Positions 41,701 through 61,601 of a DNA stretch of 64,000 nt are shown one piece after another (the first letter of the stretch is position 1; every line of letters begins with the position of its first letter). Location of the stretch: NCBI RefSeq assembly GCF_001477655.1, contig NZ_CP011266.1:124001-188000 (forward strand), given 5' to 3'. This DNA is from Methanobrevibacter millerae (lineage in GTDB: Archaea > Methanobacteriota > Methanobacteria > Methanobacteriales > Methanobacteriaceae). The translations under genes were made by a program, and so were the position numbers. Below the pieces are notes generated by a model. That model saw only the letters and a list, made by a program, of their open reading frames with translations, was not told the origin of the DNA and ran no database searches.

Positions 41701-44700
41701 AGGTTGAAATTATTAACGGTAAAGGATATTTATCTGTATCAAATTTAACTATTGGTGCTTATAACATTGTTGCTGTTTATAGTGGTGACAATGACTTGCA
41801 AGGTTCAGTTGCAGTTAAAAAATTCTATGTAAATGGTCTTAAAAGTGATGTTATAATTACATTAAATGCATCTTCAATTAATGTTGGGGATGATTTATTA
41901 GTTACTGTAAATGTGGATGAAACATTAAATGATCCAATTTATTTATATATTGATGGAAATAAATACGGAGTTATTGTTGCTGAAGATGGTAAAGCAGTAT
42001 TCACAGTTTCCGGATTAAAATCAGGCAATCATGTTTTAAATGCTTCATACTTACAAAATGATGCATTCCAGGGTAATAGTAATTCTACTAATGTTTCTGT
42101 ATCTAAAATGGATGTTGATTATGATATTGAATTAGTAGCTGATAATCAAAGAAACATTATGTTTACTATAAATGTTCAAGATGATGTTTCCGGAACAATA
42201 AAAATCATAGGCGAATCTAGAAAATATACTTTGGCTATTGAAGATGGATTAGCTGAACTTATTATTCCATCATCTGGTGGTGTATTTGAATTTAATATTA
42301 CTTATGCGGGTGATGATAAATATAATCCATTTAACACTACAAGAACTATCGATACAACCAAAGTAAGTAATTATGATATGGGAATTGTAAATACTCCTGC
42401 TTCATATAACTTGCCGATTGATATAAATGTAACATTACCAACTATTTTTGATGGTAAAACTATTAAATTAACTTTTGAAGGTAAAACTTATACCCAAACT
42501 TTAAATAATGGTGTTGCTTCATTTAAAGATATTACAGTTAAATCAACTGGTAGTGCTCTCGCTGTTGCTGAATTTGAAGGTACTACTGAGTATTTTGGCA
42601 GGATTGTCAATAAAACAATTGAAATTAACCCTGCAGAATTTGATTTAGAAATTGTTACTCCTGAAATTATTTATGTTGGAGACAATATTGTTATAAATGT
42701 AACTGTTCCATCAGGTGTCAAAAAAGTAAATATTTCTGTAAATGGTAAAACAGAAGAAGTTGATGTAAGTAAAGGATATGTTATAAATGATATTGATGAA
42801 GGAGAGTATTATGTTACTGCTTCTTTCGCTGGAGATATATCCTATGCATATGAAGTTAATTCTACTTCATTTAATGTAATCAAAAAAGATACTATTGTTG
42901 ATATTAATATTGATGCTAAAAAACACGGTGAGAAAACAATAATCGAAATTACTTTGGATGAAAATATTTCTGGTTTACTTTTAGTTGATGTAGATGGTAA
43001 TCAATATCTTTATGCAAATTTAACAACTAACGTCGTTCGTATTGAAGATGCTGGTTTTGAATCTGGCTCACATGTTCTTCATGCAAAATATATTGGTGAT
43101 AGGAAATTTAATGCAAACTCCTCACAAGCTGAGTTCTTCATTGATAAAAACTACGATTATGATATAAATGTATCATTGAACGAACAAAGAATCATTAACG
43201 GATCTACTGTTCCTGTTATCGCAGGTTCTGATTTAGTATTTTCAGTTGATGTGCCTGGTGATGCTACTGGAAAATTAACAATTAAAATATCAAATGATAC
43301 CGATACGGTATTTATAAAAGAATTAACTCTTCCAACTAATTTGGCTATTACTACTATTCCTAATCCGGGCCTATATAAACTTGAAGTGATTTATTCTGGA
43401 AATGATGATTATAATAAATCATCAAGAGTATTTAATTTAAATGTAACTCCTTCCAACATCATATCTAAAGTTGATTTCAATACTACCCGTCCGATTTATT
43501 TAGTTAATGACTCATCTGTTTTAGGTGTAACTGGTAATATTGTAAATACTCCAATTAAAGTTTATATTGATGGTACTTATGTAAATGATGTTACTTTAGA
43601 TTCTACTGGAAATGGTACTATAATTTTACCTGGACTTAGTGCAGGAAAACACACTGTTTCTTTAACTTTTGAGGGTAATGATGAATACACAGTTTTAAAT
43701 GCTTTAACTACAATTGATGTTGAAAAACATGATTCAAGTGTAAAAGTAGATATTGAAAATGTGGATAAGATTCGTGTTGGAGATAATGTTTTAATTAACG
43801 TCGAAGCGTCAGGTAATGGAACTGTCACTTTAGTTGTTCTTGGTACTAATTATGCAAGGAATTATACTGTAAATCTTAAAAATGGAAAAGCACAAGTATT
43901 AACCTATAATGATATGTTGAATGGCAGATACTCTGTTGATGTGATTTATAGTGGTGATGATTATTATTCAGGCTCAACTAATGATACCTTTTTCTTTGTA
44001 AGAGCTAAGATGGCTTCTGAATTAGAATTTGATATTCCAACAATATTGGCTAATGAAAGTTCTGTTATTGGAATGGAAGCTAATTTCAATGAAGGTGAAT
44101 TAAAAGTTTATATTGATGGTAAACTTCAAGATCAAAAAGCTTTAATTGAAAATCATGTAGGAAATATTTATTTACCTGCTTTAAATGAAGGTATTCATAC
44201 TTTGATGGTTGTTTATGATGGTGATGATGAATTTAATAATGTAACTAAAGTATTTGATATCAATGTAAAATATCATGATTCTAATATTAAAGTTAGTGTC
44301 GATAAATCAAAAATATTTGTTGATGATGTTGCTATTATTAAAATTGAATTGCCTGAAGGTGCAACAGGTGTTGTTTTAATTACTGCAGGTAATGATAAAT
44401 ATCATTTAGAAGTCACTGATGTAATTTCTTATTATTCTATTCCTAATTTAGCTAATGGTACTTATGAAGTAAATGCTAAATATTTAGGTAATGGGGTATA
44501 TGCATCAAGTAATGATACAGTGATTATTGAAGTTTATAAAGTTAGTGATTATTTAATTGATGTTGTCAGTTCTCCTATTGTCAATGACTCATCTGATGTA
44601 ACTGTTACTTTACCTGAAGATGCAAAAGGTACTGTATCTATTCGTGTTAATAATAAAACATTCACAGGTAAATTGTTAGGCGGTCAGACTGTTATTAAAG

Positions 44701-47700
44701 TCACTGGTTTGTTAGATGGAGATAACAATTTCACTGTATATTATCCTGGTGATGATAAATACACTGATTCTGAATACAGTGGTGTTATTTCAGTTGATGG
44801 TACTCATATTGAAACTAGTTTAGTTGTTAGTGCTTCTGAAATTTATGTTGGTGATGATGGAGTTATTACTGTAACTTTACCTCGTGATGCTACTGGTGTT
44901 GTTTCAATTAATATTGGTGGTAAAAATTATGCTATTATTTTAAATAATGGTGTAGGTACTTTGTCTATTCCTAATTTGGCTTATGGTACTTATAATGTAA
45001 CTGCAACTTATAATGGTGATAGTAAGTATAGTGCTGTTTCAAACAAAACTGTATTTAAAGTTATCAAGAAGTTGCCTGTAATGGATATTGTTGCTGGTGA
45101 TGTTGATGCTGGTGCGAATAATAAGGTAACTGTTAGTGTGCCTGTTGATGCTACTGGTGCTATTATTATTAATGTAAATGGTACTGAGTATGTTGCTGAA
45201 ATTAAAAATGGTGTTGCAGAGTTTAATGTTGTTACTACTATTTCTGGTGTTTATAATGTTGTTGCAACTTATAATGGTGATGCTAAATACTTGAATAATA
45301 CATTTACTACTACTTTTGCTGCTGCAAAAGTCAACTCAACTATTGATGTTGTAATTCCTAATGCTGAAATCGGTAAAAATGTTACTATTACTGTAAACAC
45401 TCCTAGTGATGCTACTGGTACTGTAACTATTACAGTTAATGGTAAAGAGTTCACAACTTCAGTTAATAATGGTAAAGCTGTATTTAGTGTTCTTGTTGGA
45501 TTATTTGACGATTACACTGTTGATGTAAAATATTCTGGTGATGCTAAATATAATGAAGCTTCAACTGCTGGTGTTATTTCAACATTTAAGGCAAATACTA
45601 CTATTAGTGTAGTTGCTAATGATGTTTATGTTGGTGATAATGCTGTTGTTGATGTTACTTTGGCTAACGATGCTAGTGGATCTGTAACTATTTTCATTAA
45701 TGGTAAAAAGTATGTTGTTCCTGTTAATGATGGTGTTGTAAGTTTACCTGTATCTAAATTGAGTGAAGGCGATTATGAAGTTAATGTAATCTATTCTGGT
45801 GATGCTAAATATAATGGAATTGAAGGAGATACTACATTTAAAGTATCTAAACACGAAACTCCTATTGATGTTAATGTTTCTGATATTAGTGTGAATGATG
45901 CTGCTGTTATTGTTGTAAGTGTTCCTGATGATATTGCTGGTAGTTTAACAATTAATGTTGATGGTACTGACTATTCTAAAGAAATCAACAATGGTCAGGC
46001 TACTTTAACTATTAATGATTTGCCTGCTGGCGAACACACTGTGACAGTAACTTATGGTGGTAATGATAAGTATGTAATGAACACTACTAGTGCTGTATTT
46101 AATGTAGATAAGTTAGCATCTGAATTAAGTGTCATTGTTAATGATATTAATGTTGGCGCTAAGGCTGCTGTTACTGTAACTGTTCCTGCTGGCGCTACCG
46201 GTACTGTGACTGTTACTGTAAATGGTAAAAATTACACTGAAACTATTGATAATGATAAGGCTGAATTTACTATAGATGCTATTGATGTTTCAGGTAATTA
46301 TCCTGTTGTTGCTAGTTATTCTGGTGATGATAAATATGTGGGTAATTCTACAACTGTTGAATTTGCTGTAAGCAAATATGTATTGGCTCCTACTGTTTCA
46401 TCTACTGTGATTGGTGATGATAATAAAGCTAATATTACTGTCGGCAATCTTAGTGATGCTAGCGGTAATGTAATTATTAGTGTTGGTAGTGCTAATTACT
46501 CTGCTCCTATTGATGGCGCTAAGGCTGTTGTTGAAGTTTCAGGATTGGTTAATGAAGCTAATGATATTGTTATAAGTTATGCTGGTGATTCTAAATACGA
46601 ATCATTTGTTAATAATGCTCAAGTCACTCGTGATGGTAAAGTTAAATTAGCTCCAAGTATTATTGTTCTTGCTGATGAGGGTGTTGCTGATAAACCAATT
46701 AAAGTATTGGTAATTTTACCTGCTGATGCAACCGGTAAAGTAACTATTACTGTAAACGGTAAAGATTATGAAACCACTGACATTGCACATGGTATTGCTA
46801 CATTCAGTGATGTAATAATTCCTGTTTCCGGTGAATTTAGTGTGAATGCATCATACTCTGGTAATGATAAATACTTAACTGCTGCTAATTCAACTACTAC
46901 AAATATCGATAAAGTCAACTCCACTATACGTGTTGATGATATTGCTATTAAAGTAGGTGAAAATGCTGTTATTAAAGTTGTTTTACCTGCTGATGCAAAT
47001 GGTACTGTTACTATTACTGTTAACGGTAAAACTGAAACCATTGATGTTGTTGCTGGTGAACCTGTTGAATTAAGTGTTTCTGATTTAGAATCAGGTAATT
47101 ATGATGTTGATGTAACTTACTCAGGTAACGGAAAATATAATGCTAATTCTACAACTGCGACTATTACTGTTGATAAGAATGCATTAGACATTAAAGTTGA
47201 TGTTAGTAATATTGATGCTGGTGAAAAAGCAAGTATTAGTGTAACTGTTCCTTCTGATGTTACTGGTACTGTTGTTGTTAGTGTAAATGGTAAGAATTAT
47301 AAACTAACTCCATCTAATGGTGTTGCTAGTGTTAAAGTTGCTAATTTAGGTGCTGGTGAATATACCGTTGTTGCTAGTTATGCTGGTGATGATAAATATG
47401 CTGCTGGATCTGATAATGCTTCATTTAAAGTAAATGGATTGAATACAGAATTGGATATTTCTGTTGATGGTGATGTTGTTGCTCGTGGTGATGTTGTAAT
47501 TACTGTTGGTGTCGATAAAACTGATGCTACTGGTACTATTACTATTAAATTTAATGGTGCTGAATTAACTTCTGATATTGTTGATGGTAAAGCTGTATTT
47601 AACACTACTTTAGGAATTGCAGGTCAGCATGATTTAACTGCTATTTATAGTGGTGATGCTAAGTATAATTCTGTTGAAAAAACTCAAGTCATTGATGTTG

Positions 47701-50700
47701 CTAAATTAACTCCAACAATTACTGTTGATGCGGAAGATATCAAATATGGAGAAATGGCTGTTGTTGTAAATTTACCTGGTGATGTAACAGGTAGTGTAAA
47801 ATTAACTATTGGTAGTGAATTTGAAGACACTGCTAATGTTGTAGGTGGTAAAGCAACATTTGAAATTTTTGATTTACCAATCGGTTCAAAAGTACTTAAT
47901 ATTGCTTATAGTGGTGATGATTACTATGGTGAGTTAAATGATGATACTAATTCATTTGAAGTTACTCATGCTATGTTCACACCTACTATCAATGCTCATT
48001 TAAATGTTGATGGAACTAAATCTGATATGAAAATTTATGTTCCACATGATTTAACTGGTACCCTGGATGTTATCGTAGGTAATAAAGAATTTAATGGTTT
48101 AACTATTGATGAAGACGAGGGTACTGCTGTCATTCTTGCTAGTCAATTAGCTGGTGTGGAAGGTAATGAATTTACTATTAAGCATGCTGGTGATGCTAAA
48201 TATGAACCTGTTGAATATTCAGGTGTTATTACTGGTGAAGGCTCTAAATTGAATGCAACTATTAATATTGTTGCTGAAAATACTGTAATTGGTGAAAATG
48301 CTACTATTAGTGTAACTGTTCCATATGAGGCTACTGGTAGTGTAACAATTAAAGTAAACGGCAAAGAATACACTAAAGAAATCGTTAAAGGTAAAGTTGT
48401 ATTTAGTGTGCTTGCTGATGTTGCTGGTGAGGTTAATGTGGATGCTTCATATGATGGAGATTCATTCTTCTTAGAATCCAGTAACTCAACTACATTCAAT
48501 GTTGCTAAGTTAACTACTGCTGTTGATATTGATGCTAAAGACATTAAGGTCGGTGAAGATGCAGTTATTACTGTAACTGTAAATGATCAGGCTACCGGTA
48601 GTGTTACTATTACTGTTGGTGGTAAAGATTACACTGAAAATGTTGATAATGGTGTTGCTAAGTTCACTGTCTCCAATTTAACTGGTGGTGTTAAAGAAAT
48701 CACTGCTAAATATAATGGTGATAGTAAATATGGTGAAAACACAACCTCTATTTCAATTAATGTGACTCGTGAAACTGTTACTCCTGTTGTTGATGCTAAT
48801 TTAACTGATGATGGTAACAAATCTGAAATTGTTATTGACATGCCTGAAGATGCAACCGGAAATGTGACTGTTAATGTTGGAAACAAAACCTTTGAGGTTC
48901 CTATTGTTGATGGTAAAGTAATTATTCCTAAGGATAACTTGACTGATGCTGATGGTAATAATATTACTGTTATGTATCCTGGTGATGATAAGTATGGTCC
49001 TATGAATATTACTGGAAACATTACTGAAGATGGAACTAAATTAAACCCTACTATCAGTGTTGAAGCTGGCGATGTTGTTGCTGGTGAAAATGCTGTTATT
49101 ATCGTTAATGTTATGGATAACGCACAAGGTAGTGTAACTATTACTGTTGATAGTAAAAATTACACTAAGGATGTTGTGGATGGTAAAGCGGTATTTGATG
49201 ATATTGTTATTAATAAGTTTGGTGATTATGAAGTGATTGCTACATTTAATGGCGATTCCAGATATTATGCTGCTACTAATAAGACTACTTTCCATGTAAA
49301 CAAAACAAATGCGGATATTAAAATTGATGTTAAAATTAAAGTCAATGTTAATACTGGTTCTGGTGTATTAGGTGATAATAACCTCAATACACCTTTATCT
49401 TTTTCAGCAGTTCCTAAATTAAATGCTGTTAGACCGTTATCTGTTCCGGTATTAAATGCGGTTGCTGAAGATGGTGATGTTGATGTTGCTGGAAATGATG
49501 GTGTTGTTGCTGCTCCTGTAAATGCGGCTCCGGCGGATGAAGTTTTAAAAGCTCCGGTTAATATTGATGATATCGTTGATAATCATGAGATTACTCTTGG
49601 CGATAATGTTACTGTTAGTGTGACTTTGCCTGATGATGCTACTGGTAGTTTAACCATTAGTGTTGACGGTAATAATGTATATGAAAATACTAGTGTTGCT
49701 GGCGGTGAAATCGCTTATACTATTGATGATTTAACATTAGGTGAACATACTATTGTTGTATACTACTCTGGTGATGATAAATATAATGAAAACACCACTA
49801 GTGTTATTGTAACTGTCAAAAAGAAAACTGTTGAGATTGGTGTTAGTGTTGAAAAATCTGTTGTCAATTCAAATGAAACACAAAAAATTACTGTAACTTT
49901 ACCTGAAAATACTAAAGGTACTTTGACTGTAACTGTTGGTGATGATATATTTATAAGAAATATTGATGGCGAACGCTTTGTTACCTTTGAGGAAGGCGGT
50001 TTGGATGCAGGTAATTATAATGTTACTGTTGAGTATGAATTAGATGATGATACTTATGAAATTGCAACCGCTAATGCTTCTTATGAGGTAATTTGTGTTG
50101 ATCCTAAATTGGATGTTTCAATTACTGAGAATTTAAAAGTTGATGATACTATTGTTATTACTGTTACTTTGCCTAAGGATGCTTCTGGTGAAGTTCATCT
50201 TTGGTTAACATATCCTAATGGAACTGTTGAAAAAGATGGTAAAGATGTTGTCAATGGTAAGGTCACTTTTGAGTATCCTGCTAGTCAGGCTGGTGATTAT
50301 AAAATTGAAATTCAATATGATGGTGATGCTAAGTATAATAAGGCTACATTTGAAGACTCTGTTAATGTTGCTAAATTGAATACTACCATTGGTGTCAGCG
50401 TTGATGAAGACAATGTTATTACTGTCAGTGTTTTAGATGATGTTACCGGTACAATTACTATTAATGTTGGTGGTAAAGATTATACTGAAACTATTGATGG
50501 TGGTAAGGCAGTATTTGATATTGGTGAGTTAGCTGCTAAAACTTATACTGTTGATGTGTCATATTCCGGTGATGATAGATATAATGTTAATTCAACTAGT
50601 GCTGAAATCACTATTCTTAAGTTAAATACAACTATTGAGGCTAGTGATGCTTCAGGTAAAGTTGATGAAAAAATCATTGTAAAAGTAACCTTGAATAAGG

Positions 50701-53700
50701 ATACTGTTGGTGTTGTCACTATTACTGTTGATGGAACTTCATATGTTGGTACTATTTCTAATGGTGTGGCTGATGTTGAGATAACTGGTCTTGCTAACGG
50801 TACTTATGATGCTGATGTTGTATATGATGGCAGTGATAGATTTAATGGAAATTCAACTAAAATCACTGTTGAAGTATTTAAAGTTGAGTCTTCTTTAACT
50901 ATAACTGCATCAGACAATATTGTTGCTGGAAATAATGTTACTATTACAGTAACTGCACCTAAAGACGCTACTGGAGATATTACTATTACTGTTGACGGTA
51001 AAGATTATACTAACGCTACTAATAATGGTGTTGCAGTATTCAGTGTTCCTGTTACTAAATCAGGTCCGTTAACAGTTAAGGCTTCTTATAGTGGTGATGA
51101 TAAGTATATCAAATCTGATAAAACAGAAACTTTCACTGCAAGCAAAATGAATTCTACTATTGAAGCAACTGACGCTAAAATCAATGTTGGTGAAGATGTT
51201 GTAATTACTGTAACTTTACCAGAGGATGCTACCGGTACTGTGACTGTTAATGTTAATGGTCAGGATTATTCAACTACAACTATTGAAAAGGGTGTTGCTA
51301 AAGTAACTATTCCTAATTTGGATGCAGATGAATATGTTGCTGCTGTAAGTTATTCCGGTGATGATAAATATAATGGTAATTCTACTGCTGTTAGTATTGT
51401 TGTTGAAAAACTTAATGCGACTTTAAATATCTTGCCTAAAGATATTACTGTTGGTCAAAAAGAATCAATTACTGTTAGTGTTCCTGTTGATGCTACCGGT
51501 AAGATTACTGTAACTGTTGATGGTAAAAATTATATTCTTACCCCTGTTAATGGTAAGGCTACTGTCAATATTCGTGATTTGGCTGCTGGTGAATATGATG
51601 TAAGTGCTGTTTTCGCTGGTGATGATAACTATGCTTCAGTATCTAATGTCTCTTCATTTAAAGTATCCAAATTGGATAATCCAATAAGCATTGATGTTGG
51701 TGATATTAAGGCTGGTGAAGATGCTGTTATTACTGTAAGTGTTGACAGTGGTGCTACCGGCAATATTACTATTTCCGTAGATGGTAAGGAATATACTAAT
51801 GTCACTGAATATGGTGTTGCAACATTTACTGTTTCCGGTTTAGGCAATGGATCATATGTTGTTGATGCAAAATATCTTGAGGATGACAAATACTTAGGAA
51901 ATTCAACTCAAAAGTCATTTGCTTGTGAAAAACAGAATATTGTTCCTAATGTCACTGCTAAGTTGGATGATGAGGGTAATAAGTCTGAGATTGAGATTCA
52001 GATGCCTGAGGGTGCTACTGGTAATGTGACTGTTACTGTGGGTAATAAGACTTTTGATGTTCCTATTGGTCCTGATGGTAAGGTTGTTATTCCTAAGGAT
52101 AATTTGACTGATGCTGATGGTAATAACTTTACTGTTTCATATCCTGGTGATGACAATTATGCTCCGTTCAATATTACAGGTGATATAACTAAAGATGGTG
52201 CTAAAATTAACGCTACTTTAGTTGTAAGTGCTGAAGACAGTGTTGTTGGTGAAACTACTAATATTACTGTAACTTTACCTGAAGATGCAACCGGTGAGGT
52301 TGAAGTATTTGTCAATGATGATAGTATTGGTAAAAAGGATTTAGTTGGTGGTAAAGCAGTATTTACTACAGATAAATTGGATAAAGCTGGTGATGCTAGT
52401 GTTAAAGCAGTTTATACTGGTAGTGATAAGTATGCTGTAGTTGAAAATACTACAAAATTCAATGTTGCTAAAGCAGCTTCAACTATTGATATGGATGCTG
52501 GTGATATTAAAGTTGGTAAAACCGCTACTATTACTGTAACTGTTCCTAAAGAAATTGGAGAAGTTACTCTTAATGTTAATGGAACTGACTATACTAACAC
52601 TACTGAAAATGGTGTTGCTGTATTTAATGTTGATGGATTAAAAGCAGGTAATTATACTGTTGTTGTTTCACATGTTGAAAGTGCCAATTATCTTGCTAAC
52701 AGTAATTCCACAGTATTCAATGTTTTAAAACTGGATGTTCCTGCAAATGTCACTGCTGAGTTGGATAATGATGGTAATAAGTCTGAGATTGAGATTCAGA
52801 TGCCTGAGGGTGCTACTGGTAATGTGACTGTTACTGTGGGTAATAAGACTTTTGAGGTTCCTATTGGTCCTGATGGTAAGGTTGTTATTCCTAAGGATAA
52901 TTTGACTGATGCTGATGGTAATAACTTTACTGTTTCATATCCTGGTGATGACAATTATGCTCCGTTCAATATTACAGGTGATATAACTAAAGATGGTGCT
53001 AAAATTAACGCTACTTTAATTGTCAGTGCTGAAGACGGTGTTGCTGGTGATAAGACTACTGTTACTGTTAAATTGCCTAGTGATGTTAAAGGAACTGTTA
53101 AAATAGTTGTTAATAATAAGGAATATGCTCCTACTAGTATTAATGATGGTATTGCTGTATTTGATGATGTTTCAATTGATACTATTGGCGATGTTGAAGT
53201 TAAGGCTAGTTTCACAGGTGATGATAAATATTATGGTGTTGAAAATTCAACCACTTTCTTGGCTGTTGGAAAAGATACTCCAATTACTGCAGAATCCACT
53301 TCTCCTGTTTATTTGGGTCAAGAAATAACTATTATTGCTGAATTGCCTGATAGTGCTGTGGGTAGTGTTGTTCTTAAGGATGAGGACGGAAATGTAATTG
53401 CTACAAATGATAGTGTTGGTGGTGAAGCTACTTTCAAATTTGAAGCTACTGTTGGTGGTGAACATACTTACACTGTTGAATATGCTGGAAGCAGTATTCA
53501 TCTTGCTAATTCAACCACTGTTGTTGTAACTGTTAATAAAAAACAATTAGATCCTATTAGTGCTGAAGCTTCACAAAATCCTATTAACTCAAATGAAAGT
53601 CAGATAATTACTGTTACTTTCCCTGAAGAAGTTAACGGTACTGTTACTGTTACTGTTGGAAATGATAGTTATATTGTAAATGTTGACAATGCAAATTCTG

Positions 53701-56700
53701 TTGATGTTACTTTAAATCCTTTAGATGCTGGAGACTACACTGCTAATGTTTTATTCGAAAGCGATAATTATGATGATGTAACTACTACGGTCGGTTTTAC
53801 TGTTGAGGCTATTGATCCTGAAATTTCAATCACTGCTCCTGACAGTGTTTCTGCTGGTGAAAATGCAACTATTGTTGTAAACTTACCTGAAGATGCTACT
53901 GGAAACGTTACTCTCAATGTAAATGGTACTGAATACAATGCTACTGTTGAAAATGGTAAAGCGGTATTCAGCGTTCCTGTTGGTGAAGCAGGTTTATATT
54001 ATGTAAATGCAACTTATCTTGGTGATGGTAAATATAATGCTGTTAAATCTCAAAGTGGCTTTGAGGCTGTAAGCAGTTATGTTGATGTCGTTGCTGAGAA
54101 TGTAACCATTAAAGTAGGCGAAGATGCCCTTGTTACTGTAACATTGCCTAAAGATGCTACAGGTGATGTCATTTTTGTCGTTAATGGTCAAAATTATATT
54201 AACAATACCATTGTTGATGGTGTTGCAACCTACAGCATTCCTAATTTGGCTTATGGAAACTACACTGTTGATATTACCTACTCCGGTGATAAAAAATATG
54301 CTTTGAACACTACTTCATGTGATATTGAAGTTGTTAAAAATGATGTTGCTTTTGATCCTACAACCAGTCCGATATTTGTAGGTGATGATGCAGTAATCAG
54401 TGTTGTTTTACCTGATGATGCTACTGGTACTGTTACTGTAACCATTGGTGATGACAATTACATCGGTCGTGTGACTGGCGGTATTACTAATGTTACTGTT
54501 CCTGGTTTAGCAAATAGAACTTATAATGCTGTTGTAGTATACTCTGGTGATGGTAAATACAATGCAAACACTTCTAGTGTTGATATTGCCGTTTCAAAAA
54601 TCAGTGACTATAATATGGTCATTGAAAATGAGGATTCAATTGTTGCTGGTGAAAGTACTGAACTTACAATTACTTTGCCTGAAGATGTTAATGGTGAAAT
54701 CACTGTTCGTGTAAACGGTAAAGAACAAAAAGTTAATGTTAAAGATGGTAAGGCTACTGTTGTTGTTGACAATGTTGTTAAAGGAGAAAATACTGTTGAG
54801 GTATCTTATCCTGGTGATGATAAATATAATCCATTAACTAACAGCAGCAAATTCAATGCTGATGCTGTTCCTGCTGACATTAGCTTGGCTAAAGATGTTA
54901 TTCCTGCTGGAGAAAACTTAGTTATTGAACTGCCTGATGATGCTACTGGTACTGTTACTGTATCTAGTGGTGGTCAGTCTATGACTGTTCCTGTTAAAGA
55001 TGGTAAGGCTGTTATTCCTACTAAAAATCTTCCTGCTGGTAAGTATCCTGTTGAAATCACTTATAATGGTGATGATAAGTATGCTGCTGTAAGCATTGAA
55101 GATACAGTTTACTTGCAAAGTGATAACTACTCCTTAAACGTTGTTGCTAATGATATTTTCATTGGTGAGGATGGAATTATTACTGTAAACTTGCCTAATG
55201 ATGCTTCTGGTATTGTATTTGTCACTGTTGACGGTGTTGAATATAATGCAAGTATCAACTATGGTGTTGCAAATGTTGTTGTTCCTGGTTTGGCATTAGG
55301 TGAACACTCTGTTAGTGTAAAATATCCTGGTGATAAAACTTACACTTCCAAATCTAATTCAACTACATTCAATGTTGTTAAATATGATCCTGAAATAAGT
55401 TTAGATAAAAATACAGTTAAAAAAGGTGAAAACTTAGTAATAACTTTACCTGATGATGCTACTGGTACTGTTACTGCTACTATTGGCGGTAAAACTATTA
55501 GTGCTCCTGTTAAAGATGGTAAGGCTATTATTTCAACTAAAGATGTTCCTGCTGGTGCTTATCCTGCTAAATTCACATACAGTGGAGATGGCAAATACAA
55601 TGCTCGTGATTTAAGTCAAAATGTTAAAGTTCAAACTGACGACTATTCAATTGTTGTTTCAGCTAAGGATATTAATGTTGGTGATAAGGCTACTGTTACT
55701 GTAACTTTGCCTGGTGATGCTACTGGTAGTGTTTCCATTGTTGTTGGTGGTAAAACTTACACTGCTCCAATTAATAATGGTAAGGCTACTTTGGATGTTT
55801 CAGGTTTAACTAAAGGAACTTACACTGTTAGTGTTACTTATGCAGGTAATGATAAATACTTGTCTAAATCCAACAGTACTAGTTTCAATGTTAAAGCATT
55901 AGATCCAAGTATTGCTGTTGCTGATGATAGTGTTAAACAGGGTGAAGATTTAGTTGTTGAGTTGCCTAAGGATGCTACTGGTACTGTGACTGCTACTATT
56001 GGTGGTAAGACTATTAGTGTTCCTGTGAAAGATGGTAAGGCTCTTATTCCTACTAAGGATATTGCTCCTGGTAAGTATCCTGCTAAGTTGTCTTACAGTG
56101 GTGATTCTAAGTATAATGCTAAGGATGTAACTGCTAATGTTAATGTTGAAGCTAAAACCATTGATGACTATTCAATTGTTGTTTCAGCTAAGGATATTAA
56201 TGCTGGTGAGAAAGCTACTATTACTGTAACTTTACCTGGTGATGCTACTGGTAGTGTTTCCATTGTTGTTGGTGGTAAAACTTACACTGCTCCAATTAAT
56301 AATGGTAAGGCTACTTTGGATGTTTCAGGATTAGCTAAGGGAACTTACACTGTTACAGCATCCTATCCTGGTAATGACAAATACTCTGCTAAATCAAACA
56401 CTACTAGCTTTAATGTTAAAGCATTAGACCCTAGTGTTAAAATTGCTGATGATACTGTTAAACAAGGTGGAAATTTAGTTGTTGAGTTGCCTAAGGATGC
56501 TACTGGTACTGTTACTGCTACTATTGGTGGTAAAACTTTCACTGCTCCTGTTAAAGATGGTAAGGCTGTAATTCCTATTAAAGGTGTTCCTGTCGGTACT
56601 TATGATGCTAAAGTCACCTACAGTGGTGATGACAAGTATGGTCCTAAAGAAGTTTCTGATAAGGTTACTGTTATGGATTTAAATATTGAAGTTCCTGATG

Positions 56701-57698
56701 TAACTAAATATTATCATGGATCTGAAAGGTTGGTTGTTACTATTAAAGACTTTGATGGTAATCCTGTTGTTAACAAGTCTGTATCTTTCTCTATTAATGG
56801 AAGGGACTATACAAGAAATACTGATGCTAATGGTAGTGCCAGTATTGCTCTTGGATTGAATAGTGGTGTATACAATGCTACTGTGGTTGTTGATAAGATG
56901 ACTTTCAATCCTGTTGTAACTATTTTACCATCTGTTAATGGTACTGATGTTTTCAAGGTTTATAAGAATGGTACTCAGTACTTTGCTACTTTCCGTGACA
57001 GTCAAGGAAACTACCTTCCTGATGGTACTGTTGTTACTTTCAACATTAATGGTGTAATGTATGAACGTAAAATATCTGGTAATTTTGGTCTTGCAAGATT
57101 GAACATCAACTTGATAGAGGGTAAATATATTATTACTGCTATTAATCCGGTTACTGGTGAAAAAGCGGCGAATAATGTTACTGTATTTTCTAGAATTATT
57201 GAGAATAGGGATATTACTAAGTACTATAGAAATGCGACTCAATATACTGCTAAGATTATTGGTGATGATGGTAAAGCTGTTGGTGCTGGTGTTGAAGTAA
57301 CATTTAATATTAATGGTGTTTTCTACACTCGTACTACTGATGCTTCTGGTGTTGTTAAACTTAATTTGAACTTGGGACCTGGTGATTATATAATCACTGC
57401 AGAGTATGCTGGTTGTAAGGTTTCAAATAAAGTTAAGGTTTTACCTACCCTTTCTGCTAGGGATATTTCAATGAGATATCGTGATGGAACTAAATTTGTT
57501 GCTTCAGTCCTTGATGGTCAGGGTAAACCGTATGCCGGTCAGACTGTTCAGTTTAATGTGAATGGTGTGTTCTATAATAGGGTATCTGATGCTAATGGTC
57601 AGGCTATCTTAAATATTAACTTGCCGGTTGGTAAATATATCATTACTTCTAGTTATAATGGTATTAATGTTGCAAACACAATAACTATTTCTGGTTGA
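38748..57698 (+). CDS. Giant Ig-repeat adhesin-like protein, 6316 residues
   Basis: One continuous 19-kb frame. Signal peptide at about 1-31 (LIIFALILCVFISLSAVSA), a Ser/Asn/Thr-rich segment, and a unique domain at about 113-245 rich in Trp and Tyr (DSWTYSWGTDTLSWNY). Then come some 60 or more Ig-like repeats (about 246-5975) with ATGTVTITVNGK.Y and YSGDDKYN cores, broken once by an Ala/Pro/Val-rich linker near residues 3520-3620. Four ~85-residue repeats (about 5978-6316) of the KYY.NGTQY...FNINGVFY...LNINL type end the protein. There is no C-terminal membrane helix, so it is exported and probably held by its terminal repeats. ATG 38748 lacks a clear ribosome site; TTG 38757 is an alternative. 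It is probably a wall-spanning fibre or adhesin with unknown ligand. Confidence 0.9.
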   Translation: MGVLCINSKGKLIIFALILCVFISLSAVSAADNSTDDVISISNSNQNVEIQQTAVESTSVENTTSNDEAVTVSANGENTSNESNDENVILTDEDLKEMGIVLKEPLLGVSIGDEDLLGDSWTYSWGTDTLSWNYVSVHLTSNLHTSTHGSLRSISESPGYFKIGSKKSTTSYAGVEIKNGQGYWTWNLYMNDAGLTPGQEYTITYFCHMNYKNDKSQSWDVHNGQDAPTSTVTIPLISTTSTCSASGTSYEYGSNSPVTLSGTVGGIVSKFASSKTVKIYRDNSYYTSVSTDNSGSWSFKIPTTSANAGSHSYYAYYEQSTYYYASASSTITVTTNAGTPAITLERTNVSSEYPGKQKVKVTVKNQKGDALSNVQVKGVGSSLNVNGVTAADGTVTFTVDNLTVGTYNDWVFSTSPIKSGNIVNYIATSKQLPSFTISKATPNFAPYFDKNYIEYWDDVTIIGDIAKAGDHYATGTVTVSDGERTGSYYLKESDEGHFEVTLRNLNVGNNKEFTVQYDGDDYYKDSIKKIYQTVNPRPVNVTLYRATPYNSMYGDKITVTGKVIYPTTASKPVGTVSVTVGGVKGTGTLDENSEFTLDIIGAQPGSYTQGVEVYYSPVGDNNYKSGEPQTLSFDKINIIKYRPTITASLTNGAYYFNGHVTVNGSVQGLVGDQYYKPKGFVYLYMDGDDTNIVGKYELNGVEDTYTINVNALTVGEHYFDVYYEGDDYYLNNIISTDKFTVASVPVDFKIEPANGYYNGSGPSASVLVNVTPRYGGVPPIGYIEVSLPDGSRKWTQELVNGSARVGITKLGVGTYEGLIVSYVSQNPNYDDTVSDQTTGFIIYQGNPNFLIDAPSIGYGQDGYIYIRIQNDATGIVTVSGLGAETLEFNITEGNKTFKVVAPQAGSYNLTGEYSGDQNYTSASADTMFYIERPGAHIGIDVSDIMYGKDAEIEFSIYSSSAMTDIATKARGSIQVFGLNNDSGYEVEIINGKGYLSVSNLTIGAYNIVAVYSGDNDLQGSVAVKKFYVNGLKSDVIITLNASSINVGDDLLVTVNVDETLNDPIYLYIDGNKYGVIVAEDGKAVFTVSGLKSGNHVLNASYLQNDAFQGNSNSTNVSVSKMDVDYDIELVADNQRNIMFTINVQDDVSGTIKIIGESRKYTLAIEDGLAELIIPSSGGVFEFNITYAGDDKYNPFNTTRTIDTTKVSNYDMGIVNTPASYNLPIDINVTLPTIFDGKTIKLTFEGKTYTQTLNNGVASFKDITVKSTGSALAVAEFEGTTEYFGRIVNKTIEINPAEFDLEIVTPEIIYVGDNIVINVTVPSGVKKVNISVNGKTEEVDVSKGYVINDIDEGEYYVTASFAGDISYAYEVNSTSFNVIKKDTIVDINIDAKKHGEKTIIEITLDENISGLLLVDVDGNQYLYANLTTNVVRIEDAGFESGSHVLHAKYIGDRKFNANSSQAEFFIDKNYDYDINVSLNEQRIINGSTVPVIAGSDLVFSVDVPGDATGKLTIKISNDTDTVFIKELTLPTNLAITTIPNPGLYKLEVIYSGNDDYNKSSRVFNLNVTPSNIISKVDFNTTRPIYLVNDSSVLGVTGNIVNTPIKVYIDGTYVNDVTLDSTGNGTIILPGLSAGKHTVSLTFEGNDEYTVLNALTTIDVEKHDSSVKVDIENVDKIRVGDNVLINVEASGNGTVTLVVLGTNYARNYTVNLKNGKAQVLTYNDMLNGRYSVDVIYSGDDYYSGSTNDTFFFVRAKMASELEFDIPTILANESSVIGMEANFNEGELKVYIDGKLQDQKALIENHVGNIYLPALNEGIHTLMVVYDGDDEFNNVTKVFDINVKYHDSNIKVSVDKSKIFVDDVAIIKIELPEGATGVVLITAGNDKYHLEVTDVISYYSIPNLANGTYEVNAKYLGNGVYASSNDTVIIEVYKVSDYLIDVVSSPIVNDSSDVTVTLPEDAKGTVSIRVNNKTFTGKLLGGQTVIKVTGLLDGDNNFTVYYPGDDKYTDSEYSGVISVDGTHIETSLVVSASEIYVGDDGVITVTLPRDATGVVSINIGGKNYAIILNNGVGTLSIPNLAYGTYNVTATYNGDSKYSAVSNKTVFKVIKKLPVMDIVAGDVDAGANNKVTVSVPVDATGAIIINVNGTEYVAEIKNGVAEFNVVTTISGVYNVVATYNGDAKYLNNTFTTTFAAAKVNSTIDVVIPNAEIGKNVTITVNTPSDATGTVTITVNGKEFTTSVNNGKAVFSVLVGLFDDYTVDVKYSGDAKYNEASTAGVISTFKANTTISVVANDVYVGDNAVVDVTLANDASGSVTIFINGKKYVVPVNDGVVSLPVSKLSEGDYEVNVIYSGDAKYNGIEGDTTFKVSKHETPIDVNVSDISVNDAAVIVVSVPDDIAGSLTINVDGTDYSKEINNGQATLTINDLPAGEHTVTVTYGGNDKYVMNTTSAVFNVDKLASELSVIVNDINVGAKAAVTVTVPAGATGTVTVTVNGKNYTETIDNDKAEFTIDAIDVSGNYPVVASYSGDDKYVGNSTTVEFAVSKYVLAPTVSSTVIGDDNKANITVGNLSDASGNVIISVGSANYSAPIDGAKAVVEVSGLVNEANDIVISYAGDSKYESFVNNAQVTRDGKVKLAPSIIVLADEGVADKPIKVLVILPADATGKVTITVNGKDYETTDIAHGIATFSDVIIPVSGEFSVNASYSGNDKYLTAANSTTTNIDKVNSTIRVDDIAIKVGENAVIKVVLPADANGTVTITVNGKTETIDVVAGEPVELSVSDLESGNYDVDVTYSGNGKYNANSTTATITVDKNALDIKVDVSNIDAGEKASISVTVPSDVTGTVVVSVNGKNYKLTPSNGVASVKVANLGAGEYTVVASYAGDDKYAAGSDNASFKVNGLNTELDISVDGDVVARGDVVITVGVDKTDATGTITIKFNGAELTSDIVDGKAVFNTTLGIAGQHDLTAIYSGDAKYNSVEKTQVIDVAKLTPTITVDAEDIKYGEMAVVVNLPGDVTGSVKLTIGSEFEDTANVVGGKATFEIFDLPIGSKVLNIAYSGDDYYGELNDDTNSFEVTHAMFTPTINAHLNVDGTKSDMKIYVPHDLTGTLDVIVGNKEFNGLTIDEDEGTAVILASQLAGVEGNEFTIKHAGDAKYEPVEYSGVITGEGSKLNATINIVAENTVIGENATISVTVPYEATGSVTIKVNGKEYTKEIVKGKVVFSVLADVAGEVNVDASYDGDSFFLESSNSTTFNVAKLTTAVDIDAKDIKVGEDAVITVTVNDQATGSVTITVGGKDYTENVDNGVAKFTVSNLTGGVKEITAKYNGDSKYGENTTSISINVTRETVTPVVDANLTDDGNKSEIVIDMPEDATGNVTVNVGNKTFEVPIVDGKVIIPKDNLTDADGNNITVMYPGDDKYGPMNITGNITEDGTKLNPTISVEAGDVVAGENAVIIVNVMDNAQGSVTITVDSKNYTKDVVDGKAVFDDIVINKFGDYEVIATFNGDSRYYAATNKTTFHVNKTNADIKIDVKIKVNVNTGSGVLGDNNLNTPLSFSAVPKLNAVRPLSVPVLNAVAEDGDVDVAGNDGVVAAPVNAAPADEVLKAPVNIDDIVDNHEITLGDNVTVSVTLPDDATGSLTISVDGNNVYENTSVAGGEIAYTIDDLTLGEHTIVVYYSGDDKYNENTTSVIVTVKKKTVEIGVSVEKSVVNSNETQKITVTLPENTKGTLTVTVGDDIFIRNIDGERFVTFEEGGLDAGNYNVTVEYELDDDTYEIATANASYEVICVDPKLDVSITENLKVDDTIVITVTLPKDASGEVHLWLTYPNGTVEKDGKDVVNGKVTFEYPASQAGDYKIEIQYDGDAKYNKATFEDSVNVAKLNTTIGVSVDEDNVITVSVLDDVTGTITINVGGKDYTETIDGGKAVFDIGELAAKTYTVDVSYSGDDRYNVNSTSAEITILKLNTTIEASDASGKVDEKIIVKVTLNKDTVGVVTITVDGTSYVGTISNGVADVEITGLANGTYDADVVYDGSDRFNGNSTKITVEVFKVESSLTITASDNIVAGNNVTITVTAPKDATGDITITVDGKDYTNATNNGVAVFSVPVTKSGPLTVKASYSGDDKYIKSDKTETFTASKMNSTIEATDAKINVGEDVVITVTLPEDATGTVTVNVNGQDYSTTTIEKGVAKVTIPNLDADEYVAAVSYSGDDKYNGNSTAVSIVVEKLNATLNILPKDITVGQKESITVSVPVDATGKITVTVDGKNYILTPVNGKATVNIRDLAAGEYDVSAVFAGDDNYASVSNVSSFKVSKLDNPISIDVGDIKAGEDAVITVSVDSGATGNITISVDGKEYTNVTEYGVATFTVSGLGNGSYVVDAKYLEDDKYLGNSTQKSFACEKQNIVPNVTAKLDDEGNKSEIEIQMPEGATGNVTVTVGNKTFDVPIGPDGKVVIPKDNLTDADGNNFTVSYPGDDNYAPFNITGDITKDGAKINATLVVSAEDSVVGETTNITVTLPEDATGEVEVFVNDDSIGKKDLVGGKAVFTTDKLDKAGDASVKAVYTGSDKYAVVENTTKFNVAKAASTIDMDAGDIKVGKTATITVTVPKEIGEVTLNVNGTDYTNTTENGVAVFNVDGLKAGNYTVVVSHVESANYLANSNSTVFNVLKLDVPANVTAELDNDGNKSEIEIQMPEGATGNVTVTVGNKTFEVPIGPDGKVVIPKDNLTDADGNNFTVSYPGDDNYAPFNITGDITKDGAKINATLIVSAEDGVAGDKTTVTVKLPSDVKGTVKIVVNNKEYAPTSINDGIAVFDDVSIDTIGDVEVKASFTGDDKYYGVENSTTFLAVGKDTPITAESTSPVYLGQEITIIAELPDSAVGSVVLKDEDGNVIATNDSVGGEATFKFEATVGGEHTYTVEYAGSSIHLANSTTVVVTVNKKQLDPISAEASQNPINSNESQIITVTFPEEVNGTVTVTVGNDSYIVNVDNANSVDVTLNPLDAGDYTANVLFESDNYDDVTTTVGFTVEAIDPEISITAPDSVSAGENATIVVNLPEDATGNVTLNVNGTEYNATVENGKAVFSVPVGEAGLYYVNATYLGDGKYNAVKSQSGFEAVSSYVDVVAENVTIKVGEDALVTVTLPKDATGDVIFVVNGQNYINNTIVDGVATYSIPNLAYGNYTVDITYSGDKKYALNTTSCDIEVVKNDVAFDPTTSPIFVGDDAVISVVLPDDATGTVTVTIGDDNYIGRVTGGITNVTVPGLANRTYNAVVVYSGDGKYNANTSSVDIAVSKISDYNMVIENEDSIVAGESTELTITLPEDVNGEITVRVNGKEQKVNVKDGKATVVVDNVVKGENTVEVSYPGDDKYNPLTNSSKFNADAVPADISLAKDVIPAGENLVIELPDDATGTVTVSSGGQSMTVPVKDGKAVIPTKNLPAGKYPVEITYNGDDKYAAVSIEDTVYLQSDNYSLNVVANDIFIGEDGIITVNLPNDASGIVFVTVDGVEYNASINYGVANVVVPGLALGEHSVSVKYPGDKTYTSKSNSTTFNVVKYDPEISLDKNTVKKGENLVITLPDDATGTVTATIGGKTISAPVKDGKAIISTKDVPAGAYPAKFTYSGDGKYNARDLSQNVKVQTDDYSIVVSAKDINVGDKATVTVTLPGDATGSVSIVVGGKTYTAPINNGKATLDVSGLTKGTYTVSVTYAGNDKYLSKSNSTSFNVKALDPSIAVADDSVKQGEDLVVELPKDATGTVTATIGGKTISVPVKDGKALIPTKDIAPGKYPAKLSYSGDSKYNAKDVTANVNVEAKTIDDYSIVVSAKDINAGEKATITVTLPGDATGSVSIVVGGKTYTAPINNGKATLDVSGLAKGTYTVTASYPGNDKYSAKSNTTSFNVKALDPSVKIADDTVKQGGNLVVELPKDATGTVTATIGGKTFTAPVKDGKAVIPIKGVPVGTYDAKVTYSGDDKYGPKEVSDKVTVMDLNIEVPDVTKYYHGSERLVVTIKDFDGNPVVNKSVSFSINGRDYTRNTDANGSASIALGLNSGVYNATVVVDKMTFNPVVTILPSVNGTDVFKVYKNGTQYFATFRDSQGNYLPDGTVVTFNINGVMYERKISGNFGLARLNINLIEGKYIITAINPVTGEKAANNVTVFSRIIENRDITKYYRNATQYTAKIIGDDGKAVGAGVEVTFNINGVFYTRTTDASGVVKLNLNLGPGDYIITAEYAGCKVSNKVKVLPTLSARDISMRYRDGTKFVASVLDGQGKPYAGQTVQFNVNGVFYNRVSDANGQAILNINLPVGKYIITSSYNGINVANTITISG
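49315..49600 (+). other. Linker dividing the Ig-like repeat array
   Basis: About 95 codons lacking the Ig pattern and rich in Ala, Pro, Val and Asp (TPLSFSAVPKLNAVRPLSV; APVNAAPADEVLKAPVNI). It separates about 40 upstream from about 27 downstream Ig-like repeats. Confidence 0.7.
51975..53018 (+). repeat. Near-identical 246-bp blocks 798 bp apart
   Basis: 51975-52220 and 52773-53018 are the same except for one noticed base (Asp versus Glu codon after the AATAAGACTTTTGA stretch). The bases between differ freely. An older, diverged relative lies at about 48820-49040. Confidence 0.9.
55641..56370 (+). repeat. Near-identical Ig-repeat blocks 525 bp apart
   Basis: About 190 bp starting at 55641 recurs from 56166 with only a few changes, a spacing of 175 codons or two Ig-like domains. 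Confidence 0.8.
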
Positions 57699-58076: not shown

Positions 58077-61000
58077 ATGAAATATAGATATTTATCCATA
58101 TTTTTATTGGTATTGGTATTATCTATCGGTGCTGTTTGTGCACAAGATAACGTTACAGATGTAGATTTAATATCTCAAAGTAGTAATGATGTTATCTCTG
58201 TAGATAGTAATATCGATATTAAACAAGCTAATGAGTCTAGTACTCAAGAGGAAATCCACATCAATGATGCAAATTATGCTGATTATTTTGATGAGGATGG
58301 TAAGATGAACAGTAATATTTCTGATGGTTCAATTTTATACATTGGAGATGTTACAAATAAAACTTTTATTGTGGATAAGGTTGTAACCATATCTCCAGAC
58401 AATACTTCAAACATTATCGATTCTAAATTCTCTTTCGTTGATGGAAGTGATATGTCTTTAATTAATGGTTTAACTTTTAATAATGCTGACATTGGAGCCA
58501 TTACTGTTAATAATGCTTCAGATATTTTAATTTCTAATAACATTATTAATATTAATGCAGCGGGAAATGTAACTGAATTTGCTATTTTGGCACAAGTTGC
58601 TAAAAATTTAATCGTTTCAAGCAATGAAATTTACTTTACTGGAAAGACTGATGGTTATGCTCCAGCAAATGCTGTTCGTGTCACTGAATCTGATAATGCG
58701 GTAATTGATGACAATATTTTAGAGATTAATATTCCTTCCTGTCCAGTAGGCTGGACTGAAATTCCTGCTGGATCAGGTAATTGGGTAAGCAGTCCTATTA
58801 GTGAAGGTGTTGTAATTTCAAATTCCAATAATATTTCATTTAGAAAAAACACTGTCAAATTAAATGCTACTGATGTTATTGGCGATTATGATACAATTTA
58901 TGTTGTAGACATTAATGACTGTAGTGATGCAATTGTTGCAGACAGTGAAATTACTGCTAACGGCCATTCATACATTTACGGATTAATCATATCTGGTGAT
59001 AACTTTAATGTCACTAACAATACCATAAGCACTATTTCCGATACTTATTATGCTGATGGTATTGATGTTGAAGGTCCTGCAACTGGTATCGTTGAATCTA
59101 ATGTTGTAACTGTTTCAGCTCCTGCCTCTGCTTATGGTATTTATGCTGCAATGTCCAACGGTAATGTTAGTGTGGATTATAAAGATAACATTATTAATGC
59201 TGATGCTTATGCCGCTTTCGGTATGGAAATGTCCGGAATTATATCTGATGTTTTAAATAATGTTATTACTGTACAAGGTAATTATACCACAGGTATTGCT
59301 ACCCGTATTACTGACGTTAATATTGCTGAGAATAATATTACCGCTAAAGGATCAGGTAAAGGTAATGAATCTATTTGGGATGGTTTTGGTGTTCAAAATG
59401 TTGGAATCAAGACAATTGATAATAATGCAATCATTGTGAACAATACCATTAATTCTAATGATAATGGTGTCAGTGCTTCCCGTGCTAATTTAACTGTAGG
59501 TTCTAATACTCTGGATGTTGTTGATACTGGTTCTGATGACTCTTATGGTATTTATGTTGTTGAGTCTAGTAATGTAGAAATTGACGAAAACGACATTACT
59601 TATGAAGGTCATACCAATGGTACTTTTGTTAACAATGCTATGTATATTGGAGATTCTGCTATTTATGAAGTCTCTGGAAACAACTTCAATATAACTATTC
59701 CTTCTGCACCTGTTAATTGGGTAGAAATCCCTGCAGGCTCATGGAATTATGTAAGAATTGCAAGTTCTGAAGGTATTGTCTTTAATAATGATACAGGATT
59801 AAAGTTCAACGATAATAAAATTGATCTTACTGCTAGTGAGGCTATTGGAGATTATGATACTATCTATGTAATTGACTCTAACTGTGATGATGCAGTAATA
59901 AGTGGTAATGATGTCTTTGCTAATGGTAAAAGTTATATTTACGGATTAATCATTTCCGGAGAAAATTTAAATGTTTCAAACAATGATATCACGTCAATAT
60001 CTGATACTTATTATGCTAACGCTATTGATGTTGAAGGTCCTGCTTCAGGTTCATTCGATAACAATAATTTCACTGCTATATCTCCTGTTGTAGCTTATGG
60101 TATTTATTCATCCATGTCTGGTAGTGATGTAAACGCTACATATCATAACAATATCATTCGTGGTGAAGCTGATATTATCTACGGTATGGAATTGGCTGGA
60201 ACCAATGAAACTGTAACTGAAAACACTATTGAATTGGACGGTAATAAAACCATGGGTATTGCAGGTAAATCCAGTACTTTAAATATTGCAAACAACGAAA
60301 TTAAAGCTTTAGGTAAAAACTTAGGAAACACTACCTTATGGGAATCATTTGAACCTGAAACCGTTGGTGTTAAAATCATTGGTGGAAATGCTACTGTTTA
60401 TGGTAACAACATTAAATCTAACGGTACATCTGCTGTAAATGTAACTACTACTAATGCTAGCGTTACTTACAATTATTTGGTAAGTAATGAATCATTCGGT
60501 GATGCATCTGTTTATTTCGATGGAAATGCAACAGTTCATGATAACCTTCCGGATTATGACGCATTTTTAGAAACTGAAGATGTAATAATGTATTATAAAA
60601 ACGGAACCCGTTTCATTGCTAATTTAGTTAACTTCTATGGTGAACCTCTCGCAAATATGACTATTACATTTACTATAAATGGTGTTGATTATAATAGAAC
60701 AACCGATGAAAACGGTACTGCAAGCATGGCTATTAATCTCCCATCTGGAGAGTATGAAGTAATCACCACATTTGATCCGGGCTATAATAAAACTCCAACT
60801 GTAAATTCAAACAGTTTAACAGTTTTAACAACAGTATTCGGTGACGATTTGGTTAAAGTTTACAGAAACGAATCACAATACTATGCTACATTCGTGGATG
60901 GTCAAGGAAACCCATTGGCTAGTGGTACTGAAGTTAAATTCAATATTAATGGTGTATGGTATAACCGTAAAATCACTGAAAACGGTACTGCTAAATTAAA

Positions 61001-61601
61001 CATCAACTTACCTCAAGGTGAATATATAATTACTGCGGTCAATCCTGAAAATGGTGAAATGCATACCAATAACATTACTGTTTTATCTTCAATTACAGAC
61101 AACGCGGATTTAGTAAAATACTACAAAAATGATTCTCAATATGTTGTCACTGTTTTAGGTTCTGACGGTAATCCTGTTGGTGCTGGTGAAAATGTTACAT
61201 TCAATATTAATGGTGTAATGTACACTCGCCAAACTAATGCATCAGGTCAAGCTAAATTAAATATTAACTTGCAACCGGGTAACTATACCATTACTGCAGA
61301 GTATAACGGATGTAAAGTATCAAACAATATTGAAGTATTGCCTGTTTTAAGGGCAAATGACCTCGTTAAAAAATATGGTGTTTCCGATCAGTTCATAGCT
61401 TATTTGGTTGATGGTCAGGGTAAACCATTTGAAGGTCAAAATGTAACTTTCAATATTAACGGTGTGTTCTATAATAGATTAACTGATAGTGATGGTCGTG
61501 CTATTCTTAATATTAAATTAGGAGCAGCAATGGATACTTATATCATTACTTCCAGTTATAATGGATCCAGTATTTCAAATAAAATATCAGTTATTCCTTA
61601 A
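58077..61601 (+). CDS. Adhesin-like protein with NosD-type beta-helix and C-terminal wall-type repeats
   Basis: 1174 residues, ATG start with AGGAGA upstream. Signal peptide at 1-22 (YLSIFLLVLVLSIGAVCA), a short acidic segment, then a right-handed beta-helix (about 60-825) of NosD-like coils (NNTI...NNI). Two halves of it are a duplication with a 322-codon period: GDYDTIYV, SYIYGLIISG and DTYYA.(G/A)IDVEGPA recur in the same order. Four ~85-residue repeats (about 832-1174) end the protein and match those of the peptidase ALP and the 6316-residue ALP. There is no membrane tail. It is probably a wall-bound surface protein; a polysaccharide-binding or lyase role is possible for a beta-helix, but no catalytic residues can be assigned. 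Confidence 0.88.
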   Translation: MKYRYLSIFLLVLVLSIGAVCAQDNVTDVDLISQSSNDVISVDSNIDIKQANESSTQEEIHINDANYADYFDEDGKMNSNISDGSILYIGDVTNKTFIVDKVVTISPDNTSNIIDSKFSFVDGSDMSLINGLTFNNADIGAITVNNASDILISNNIININAAGNVTEFAILAQVAKNLIVSSNEIYFTGKTDGYAPANAVRVTESDNAVIDDNILEINIPSCPVGWTEIPAGSGNWVSSPISEGVVISNSNNISFRKNTVKLNATDVIGDYDTIYVVDINDCSDAIVADSEITANGHSYIYGLIISGDNFNVTNNTISTISDTYYADGIDVEGPATGIVESNVVTVSAPASAYGIYAAMSNGNVSVDYKDNIINADAYAAFGMEMSGIISDVLNNVITVQGNYTTGIATRITDVNIAENNITAKGSGKGNESIWDGFGVQNVGIKTIDNNAIIVNNTINSNDNGVSASRANLTVGSNTLDVVDTGSDDSYGIYVVESSNVEIDENDITYEGHTNGTFVNNAMYIGDSAIYEVSGNNFNITIPSAPVNWVEIPAGSWNYVRIASSEGIVFNNDTGLKFNDNKIDLTASEAIGDYDTIYVIDSNCDDAVISGNDVFANGKSYIYGLIISGENLNVSNNDITSISDTYYANAIDVEGPASGSFDNNNFTAISPVVAYGIYSSMSGSDVNATYHNNIIRGEADIIYGMELAGTNETVTENTIELDGNKTMGIAGKSSTLNIANNEIKALGKNLGNTTLWESFEPETVGVKIIGGNATVYGNNIKSNGTSAVNVTTTNASVTYNYLVSNESFGDASVYFDGNATVHDNLPDYDAFLETEDVIMYYKNGTRFIANLVNFYGEPLANMTITFTINGVDYNRTTDENGTASMAINLPSGEYEVITTFDPGYNKTPTVNSNSLTVLTTVFGDDLVKVYRNESQYYATFVDGQGNPLASGTEVKFNINGVWYNRKITENGTAKLNINLPQGEYIITAVNPENGEMHTNNITVLSSITDNADLVKYYKNDSQYVVTVLGSDGNPVGAGENVTFNINGVMYTRQTNASGQAKLNINLQPGNYTITAEYNGCKVSNNIEVLPVLRANDLVKKYGVSDQFIAYLVDGQGKPFEGQNVTFNINGVFYNRLTDSDGRAILNIKLGAAMDTYIITSSYNGSSISNKISVIP

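Follow-up and report, generated by a model that had tools for sequence, protein, structure and literature searches.

Three adhesin-like proteins (ALPs) encoded in a 64-kb stretch of the Methanobrevibacter millerae SM9 genome (the whole stretch that was analysed; hereafter, the window) end in tandem modules that may constitute a portable C-terminal surface-anchoring cassette, in which three to four Ig-like (Big_1-like) modules follow the fixed order 4 (variable), 3, 2, and 1 (terminal). On balance, it is probable that this cassette acts as a non-covalent cell-surface anchor in general; that pseudomurein itself is the ligand is doubtful. Giant ALPs make up much of the surface of rumen methanogens, and their retention on the pseudomurein wall is an unsolved problem.

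Tandem modules in three ALPs

The published genome of M. millerae SM9 measures 2,543,538 bp (PMC4987999), and the source genome of the window is a single contig of 2,543,538 bases, on which the window covers positions 124,001–188,000. Eleven modules, each 77–89 residues long (approximately 84), were counted in the three ALPs, all encoded on the forward strand. The 1061-aa papain-like ALP (5424..8609) comprises a signal peptide, a repeat-rich N-terminal region, Peptidase_C1 (PF00112) and Lectin_like domains, and a C-terminal three-module cassette of the 3-2-1 type (7863..8606). In the 6316-aa ALP (38748..57698), a signal peptide and a long Big_3_5 stalk are followed directly by a four-module 4-3-2-1 cassette (56682..57695), and the chain stops at the last module. 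The 1174-aa ALP (58077..61601) carries a signal peptide, right-handed beta-helix repeats, and a C-terminal four-module 4-3-2-1 cassette (60564..61598). A sequence-only reading of the window had described a repeat of approximately 85 residues occurring three times on the peptidase ALP and four times at the end of each of the other two; these counts, and the coordinates given for the 6316-aa ALP, were borne out. In contrast, the 6829-aa ALP (10876..31365, forward strand) has a Big_3_5 stalk and no cassette, and its C-terminus consists of PTGNP, a membrane helix, and RRFKR.

Seven alignment columns are invariant across the 11 modules (N39, G40, Y43, R45, G51, L59, and Y64). A profile built from these modules returned at least 150 matches in its own genome, with E-values down to 3.9e-38; the tandem C-terminal modules are thus real and far above chance.

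A fixed module order

Modules were numbered from the C-terminus, with module 1 being terminal and module 4 variable. As judged by sequence comparison, they group by position in the array, not by protein. Mean pairwise identity within a position is 56% (module 1), 57% (module 2), 50% (module 3), and 39% (module 4), as against 33–47% between positions, with modules 1 and 2 being the best conserved. Only 4 of 153 modules have their nearest neighbour in the same protein, and every one of the 40 last modules is closest to another last module. On the module tree, 7 changes of position label suffice (minimum 3; shuffled mean 84.8), and one side of a branch with an SH-like support of 90 consists of module 1. 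When each module was assigned to its best profile, 32 of 40 C-terminal arrays ended in 4-3-2-1 and five in 3-2-1, a result that is partly circular because the profiles were trained on these proteins. Three arrays outside the training set, each followed by more sequence, also read 4-3-2-1 (O_213666, O_394928, and O_1280551), and the order is the same at 11 of 15 loci outside the window whose best matches lie in other species (L071–L086). The enzyme-linked cassettes (four Peptidase_C1 and one Peptidase_C69) are compact, reading 3-2-1, 3-3-1, or 4-3-3-1, with modules 2 and 3 poorly separated. Module 4 varies in number and resembles stalk units.

Genome-wide occurrence and C-terminal helices

Genome-wide counts rest on regions around profile matches together with ALPs found by stalk or beta-helix models; the ORFs of these SM9 regions contain 218 module matches above 40 bits. 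In 40 SM9 ORFs with at least three modules, the last module lies within 3 residues of the chain end. The passengers of C-terminal cassettes are unrelated to one another, and include beta-helix proteins, Big_3_5 stalks, four Peptidase_C1 proteins, and one Peptidase_C69 enzyme (L044:1167-3515; genome 1630666-1633014; Peptidase_C69 match of 233 bits). Two pairs of near-identical ALP arrays were found far apart in the genome (326764-333624 and 2324110-2331084; 320965-325719 and 2318243-2324023), which suggests that a two-gene block has recently been duplicated or has undergone gene conversion.

Approximately ten further SM9 proteins carry N-terminal or internal arrays with approximately 60 to 880 residues downstream, and the repeat is therefore not always C-terminal, as had been claimed. 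These non-terminal arrays precede transglutaminase, pseudomurein-binding repeat (PMBR), and glycosidase-like domains, among others, and the exceptions include wall-type enzymes. Two proteins, of 1499 and 1131 aa, each combine an array with two PMBRs and a transglutaminase core, the former also with a DUF4015 glycosidase-like domain; a third, of 915 aa, pairs its array with a DUF4015 match just below the Pfam cut-off. Complete 4-3-2-1 cassettes were also seen with 59–628 residues after them.

The accompanying claim, that proteins with the repeat always lack a membrane anchor at that place, stands for C-terminal arrays: none of the 40 SM9 proteins with such an array has a C-terminal hydrophobic helix, as assigned by a hydropathy window and not by a trained predictor. 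In a 2x2 comparison, this helix was present in 0 of 34 array proteins versus 11 of 21 others (p = 3e-6, with the paralogues not being independent). Both classes show an N-terminal segment carrying an A-x-A-type site (33/35 and 9/10), which suggests cleavable signal peptides in each; attachment, if so, would fall to the C-terminus. Most ALPs lacking the cassette finish with (A/P)TGNP followed by a hydrophobic helix and then a basic tail, as at 31283-31365 in the 6829-aa ALP and at seven other ORF ends. Because eight of ten TGNP occurrences in the 189,501 residues of SM9 regions examined fall within the last 40 residues, and because a search of the SM9 genome for sortases found one, TGNP is a candidate sorting signal distinct from LPxTG.

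Fold and solved relatives

An AlphaFold2 model of one module (19 sequences) contains seven strands in an Ig-like beta-sandwich with a pLDDT of 93, and the predicted fold is of the Ig-like/Big_1 class. The four-module model (3 sequences) reached a pLDDT of 68, at which the relative orientation of the modules is not interpretable. A sequence search of solved structures placed MpAFP region II (from an ice adhesin), an RTX adhesin, SiiE, and invasin nearest, all of them stalk or adhesin domains. Foldseek matches include intimin, the S-layer protein SbsC, and MpAFP, and searches of the PDB and BFVD returned generic Ig-like matches only, without a functional lead. The fold gives no pointer to function. 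Two NCBIfam models, Ca_tandemer and Por secretion tail, showed weak similarity below their cut-offs.

Both Big_1 and Big_3_5 of Pfam match the array. Big_1 (PF02369) scores 51 bits (E 1.6e-13; gathering cut-off 34.9) at the end of the 6316-aa ALP and 43.8 bits against the same 34.9 cut-off in the peptidase ALP; the 1174-aa ALP is unlisted. The Big_1, Big_3_5, and "archaeal Big domain" (ABD) stalks of ALPs share this fold class with the cassette, but ABDs form long stalks of variable number, whereas the SM9 cassette is short, ordered, and terminal (PMC11532034). The accessible portion of that source describes no ordered terminal cassette for ABD ALPs.

Relation to M1-C and Mru_1499 of M. ruminantium

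Leahy et al. (2010) described a C-terminal domain of approximately 200 residues, M1-C, common to 44 ALPs of M. ruminantium, whose M1 genome measures 2,937,203 bp (PMC2812497). The domain has weak homology to Big_1, several M1-C ALPs carry papain-family domains, and 14 other ALPs of this species have a C-terminal helix instead (PMC2812497). Attachment of M1-C to pseudomurein or wall glycopolymers was put forward as a proposal only (PMC2812497); thus, the hypothesis of the sequence-only reading was already published for a relative of the repeat.

The element was recovered in the M1 genome, where 49 ORFs (44 in the published count) end within 10 aa of homologous modules, typically two per protein. 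These modules average 46–52 bits each against the SM9 module-4 profile, and are thus detectably homologous. Like the SM9 cassette, M1-C is C-terminal and Big_1-like. Dozens of ALPs carry it, as do papain-type proteases, and its bearers are separate from the ALPs that have a C-terminal helix; wall attachment is the idea put forward for both. However, M1-C consists of two modules and the SM9 cassette of three to four; the M1-C consensus spans approximately 200 residues, and the SM9 cassette approximately 250–345; and the best repeat-profile match reaches at most 77 bits in M1 compared with 131 bits in SM9. When an M1-C consensus was rebuilt from the M1 genome, it proved to be a distant homologue, with both modules mostly nearest to module 4, not to the 3-2-1 series. 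Because the cassette would do the job proposed for M1-C and is its distant homologue, we file it as a distant, longer, ordered variant of this known element.

A second relative points in another direction. According to a study as summarized in PMC9213418, the Big_1 domain of Mru_1499 (AdLP-D1) is needed for protozoa binding. Published peptides of this domain score 76 bits against the repeat profile, and the domain is a homologous module whose closest profiles are those of modules 4 and 1. Unlike the SM9 cassette, it is N-terminal in a transglutaminase-like protein that lacks a terminal cassette. Given this score and the reported binding, partner binding stays a serious rival to wall attachment.

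Pseudomurein and taxonomic distribution

The PMBR (PF09373; PeiW, PeiP, PeiR, and MTH719) shares with the cassette a proposed role in non-covalent wall retention; it too comes as several tandem units, can change position, and is found on wall lysins (PMC3124540, PMC6189367). As an identity for the present module it was rejected: the window arrays gave no PF09373 match at E<=10, and the PMBR matches of SM9 sit elsewhere. The earlier view that the repeat differs from the PMBR is therefore upheld, with an 84-aa beta-sandwich on one side, a motif of approximately 33 aa on the other, and no sequence match between them.

At E<=1e-8, the repeat was found in 118 of 152 genomes of the phylum and in 12 of 20 genera, all within the family of the window (Methanobacteriaceae). 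The PMBR is wider, occurring in 147 of the 152 genomes and all 20 genera, including 13 genomes of other families. None of these 13 contains a repeat array, though all 13 bear the PMBR; they probably represent Methanothermobacter-like, Methanothermus-like, and Methanopyrus-like lineages, and together with genome G143 they make up the 14 phylum genomes without a listed repeat match. At the other extreme, 24 genomes have a best E-value of 3.2e-34 or lower; the window's genus contributes 22 (of 67), and a second genus contributes both of its genomes. All others begin at 2.7e-29, and this gap marks the SM9-type modules as belonging to a subset.

Archaea without pseudomurein were represented by Thermoplasmatota only, in whose 390 genomes no strong arrays were found; six genomes had any match, the best being single and scoring 45 bits. 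Strong arrays were likewise absent from one bacterial phylum, of which 398 genomes around a MAG labelled Bacillota were sampled (best match 40 bits, in one genome). These outgroups were reached through a PylRS marker, which served that end alone. Among the genomes covered, the repeat is restricted to part of the pseudomurein-containing archaea. Strong arrays are limited to the window's family; however, their absence from 13 PMBR-bearing genomes means that pseudomurein alone neither predicts nor explains the distribution, which is consistent with pseudomurein but narrower.

Related repeats on viruses

In each of three IMG/VR contigs, a large protein encoded just past the tape-measure region carries three related repeats N-terminally. 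One such tail-hub-like protein (L105:7250-10501) bears Transglut_core, above cut-off, at its C-terminal end and is a possible tail lysin; another (L103:7995-11381) is flanked by a tape measure and a baseplate J protein. The host of L103 was sought through its sheath-like protein, which had no match in 50,697 phage records. Among those same records, the repeat matched one virus, Caudoviricetes sp. vir249 (two accessions; host Methanobacteriales), in the last approximately 80 residues of a tail-region protein. Its gene lies two genes before a Peptidase_C71 gene annotated as a pseudomurein endoisopeptidase. Ig-like domains on viruses of this kind may already be noted in a 2023 compendium of methanogen viruses. 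In sequence, the virus repeats are for the most part like the generic module 4 and unlike the terminal 2-1 pair; what they favour is a general role at the methanogen surface, which falls short of the specific claim of an anchor.

Proposed function and alternatives

In the proposed mechanism, a cassette protein would be exported by the Sec route and lose its N-terminal signal peptide, which would leave it without a membrane anchor. Non-covalent binding of the cassette to pseudomurein, or else to a glycopolymer of the wall, would then keep the protein in place, and its passenger (beta-helix, stalk, or peptidase) would face outward. The original designation as a candidate pseudomurein-binding module is partly supported. 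Wall anchoring is the reading with the most support, drawing on the terminal position, the lack of any other anchor, the unrelated passengers, the alternation with a membrane-anchored class, the PMBR/transglutaminase enzymes, and the virus tail proteins; pseudomurein is a candidate ligand only. Against anchoring, two wall-type enzymes carry both an array and PMBRs, so that the array may not be the anchor there. The absence of arrays from the 13 PMBR genomes, the stalk and adhesin character of the solved relatives, Mru_1499, and the resemblance of virus repeats to module 4 also count against it.

Were the N-terminal segment to stay in the membrane, the cassette would lie outermost and could bind other microbes or host material as a distal adhesive tip. 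Gupta and Seedorf took the N-terminal helices of M. smithii and M. stadtmanae ALPs as membrane anchors. However, the same A-x-A N-terminal signal is also found on ALPs with a C-terminal helix, compact peptidases bear the same tail, and a partner-binding end would be expected to vary among paralogues, whereas modules 1 and 2 are the best conserved (56–57% mean pairwise identity); we regard this arrangement as unlikely. It is more improbable still that the modules are a passive spacer or end-cap that lengthens, rigidifies, or protects the chain end in the manner of the Ca2+-stabilised extender domains of bacterial adhesins. Such a role would suit the variable number of module 4 and its resemblance to stalk units, the closest solved sequences (MpAFP region II and related adhesin domains), the sub-threshold similarity to Ca_tandemer, and the Ig-like model with a pLDDT of 93, but a passive stalk would not need the 3-2-1 order kept across paralogues and species, nor do the secreted peptidases that end in the cassette have a long stalk to cap. 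The strictly terminal position, with the protein stopping at the last module, and the sub-threshold Por secretion tail matches also recall the C-terminal domains of type IX secretion, that is, an export or sorting signal for a dedicated secretion or attachment machine. With Sec-type signals present, complete 4-3-2-1 cassettes followed by 59–628 residues, and a unit that is a multi-module fold and not a short signal, this reading has very little probability.

Wall anchoring might further take the form of an ordered code, in which modules 3, 2, and 1 would each have a task that the others cannot take over (one might be a spacer, one might recognise a wall polymer, and one might be a terminal lock). 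Methanobrevibacter lineages would differ in their cassettes (the two-module M1-C and the four-module SM9 type), each fitted to the wall chemistry of its lineage, and their viruses would use relatives of the modules on tail proteins to reach the wall. We hold this extension to be speculative and unlikely. As judged outside subscription papers, four points seem new: the fixed module order, the portability of the cassette to peptidases of the C69 and C1 types, its restriction to certain lineages, and the link to viruses. Being short, portable, and soluble, the cassette is directly testable as a fusion; should it bind, it would be usable as a display tag and as the targeting part of lysins and vaccines against methanogens. 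Strong arrays in one family, together with relatives on the viruses of that family, are a concrete lead on virus adsorption to methanogens.

Neighbouring wall genes

The two giant ALP genes of the window flank genes for the pseudomurein peptide ligases pMurD1 (31520-32905; 700 bits, cut-off 610) and pMurC (32877-34403; 748 bits, cut-off 560). A truncated second pMurD1 copy (8722-9321; 199 aa, model positions 1-197) lies directly after the peptidase ALP, is followed by a DDE_3 transposase-like gene (9656-10372), and looks like a duplication remnant.
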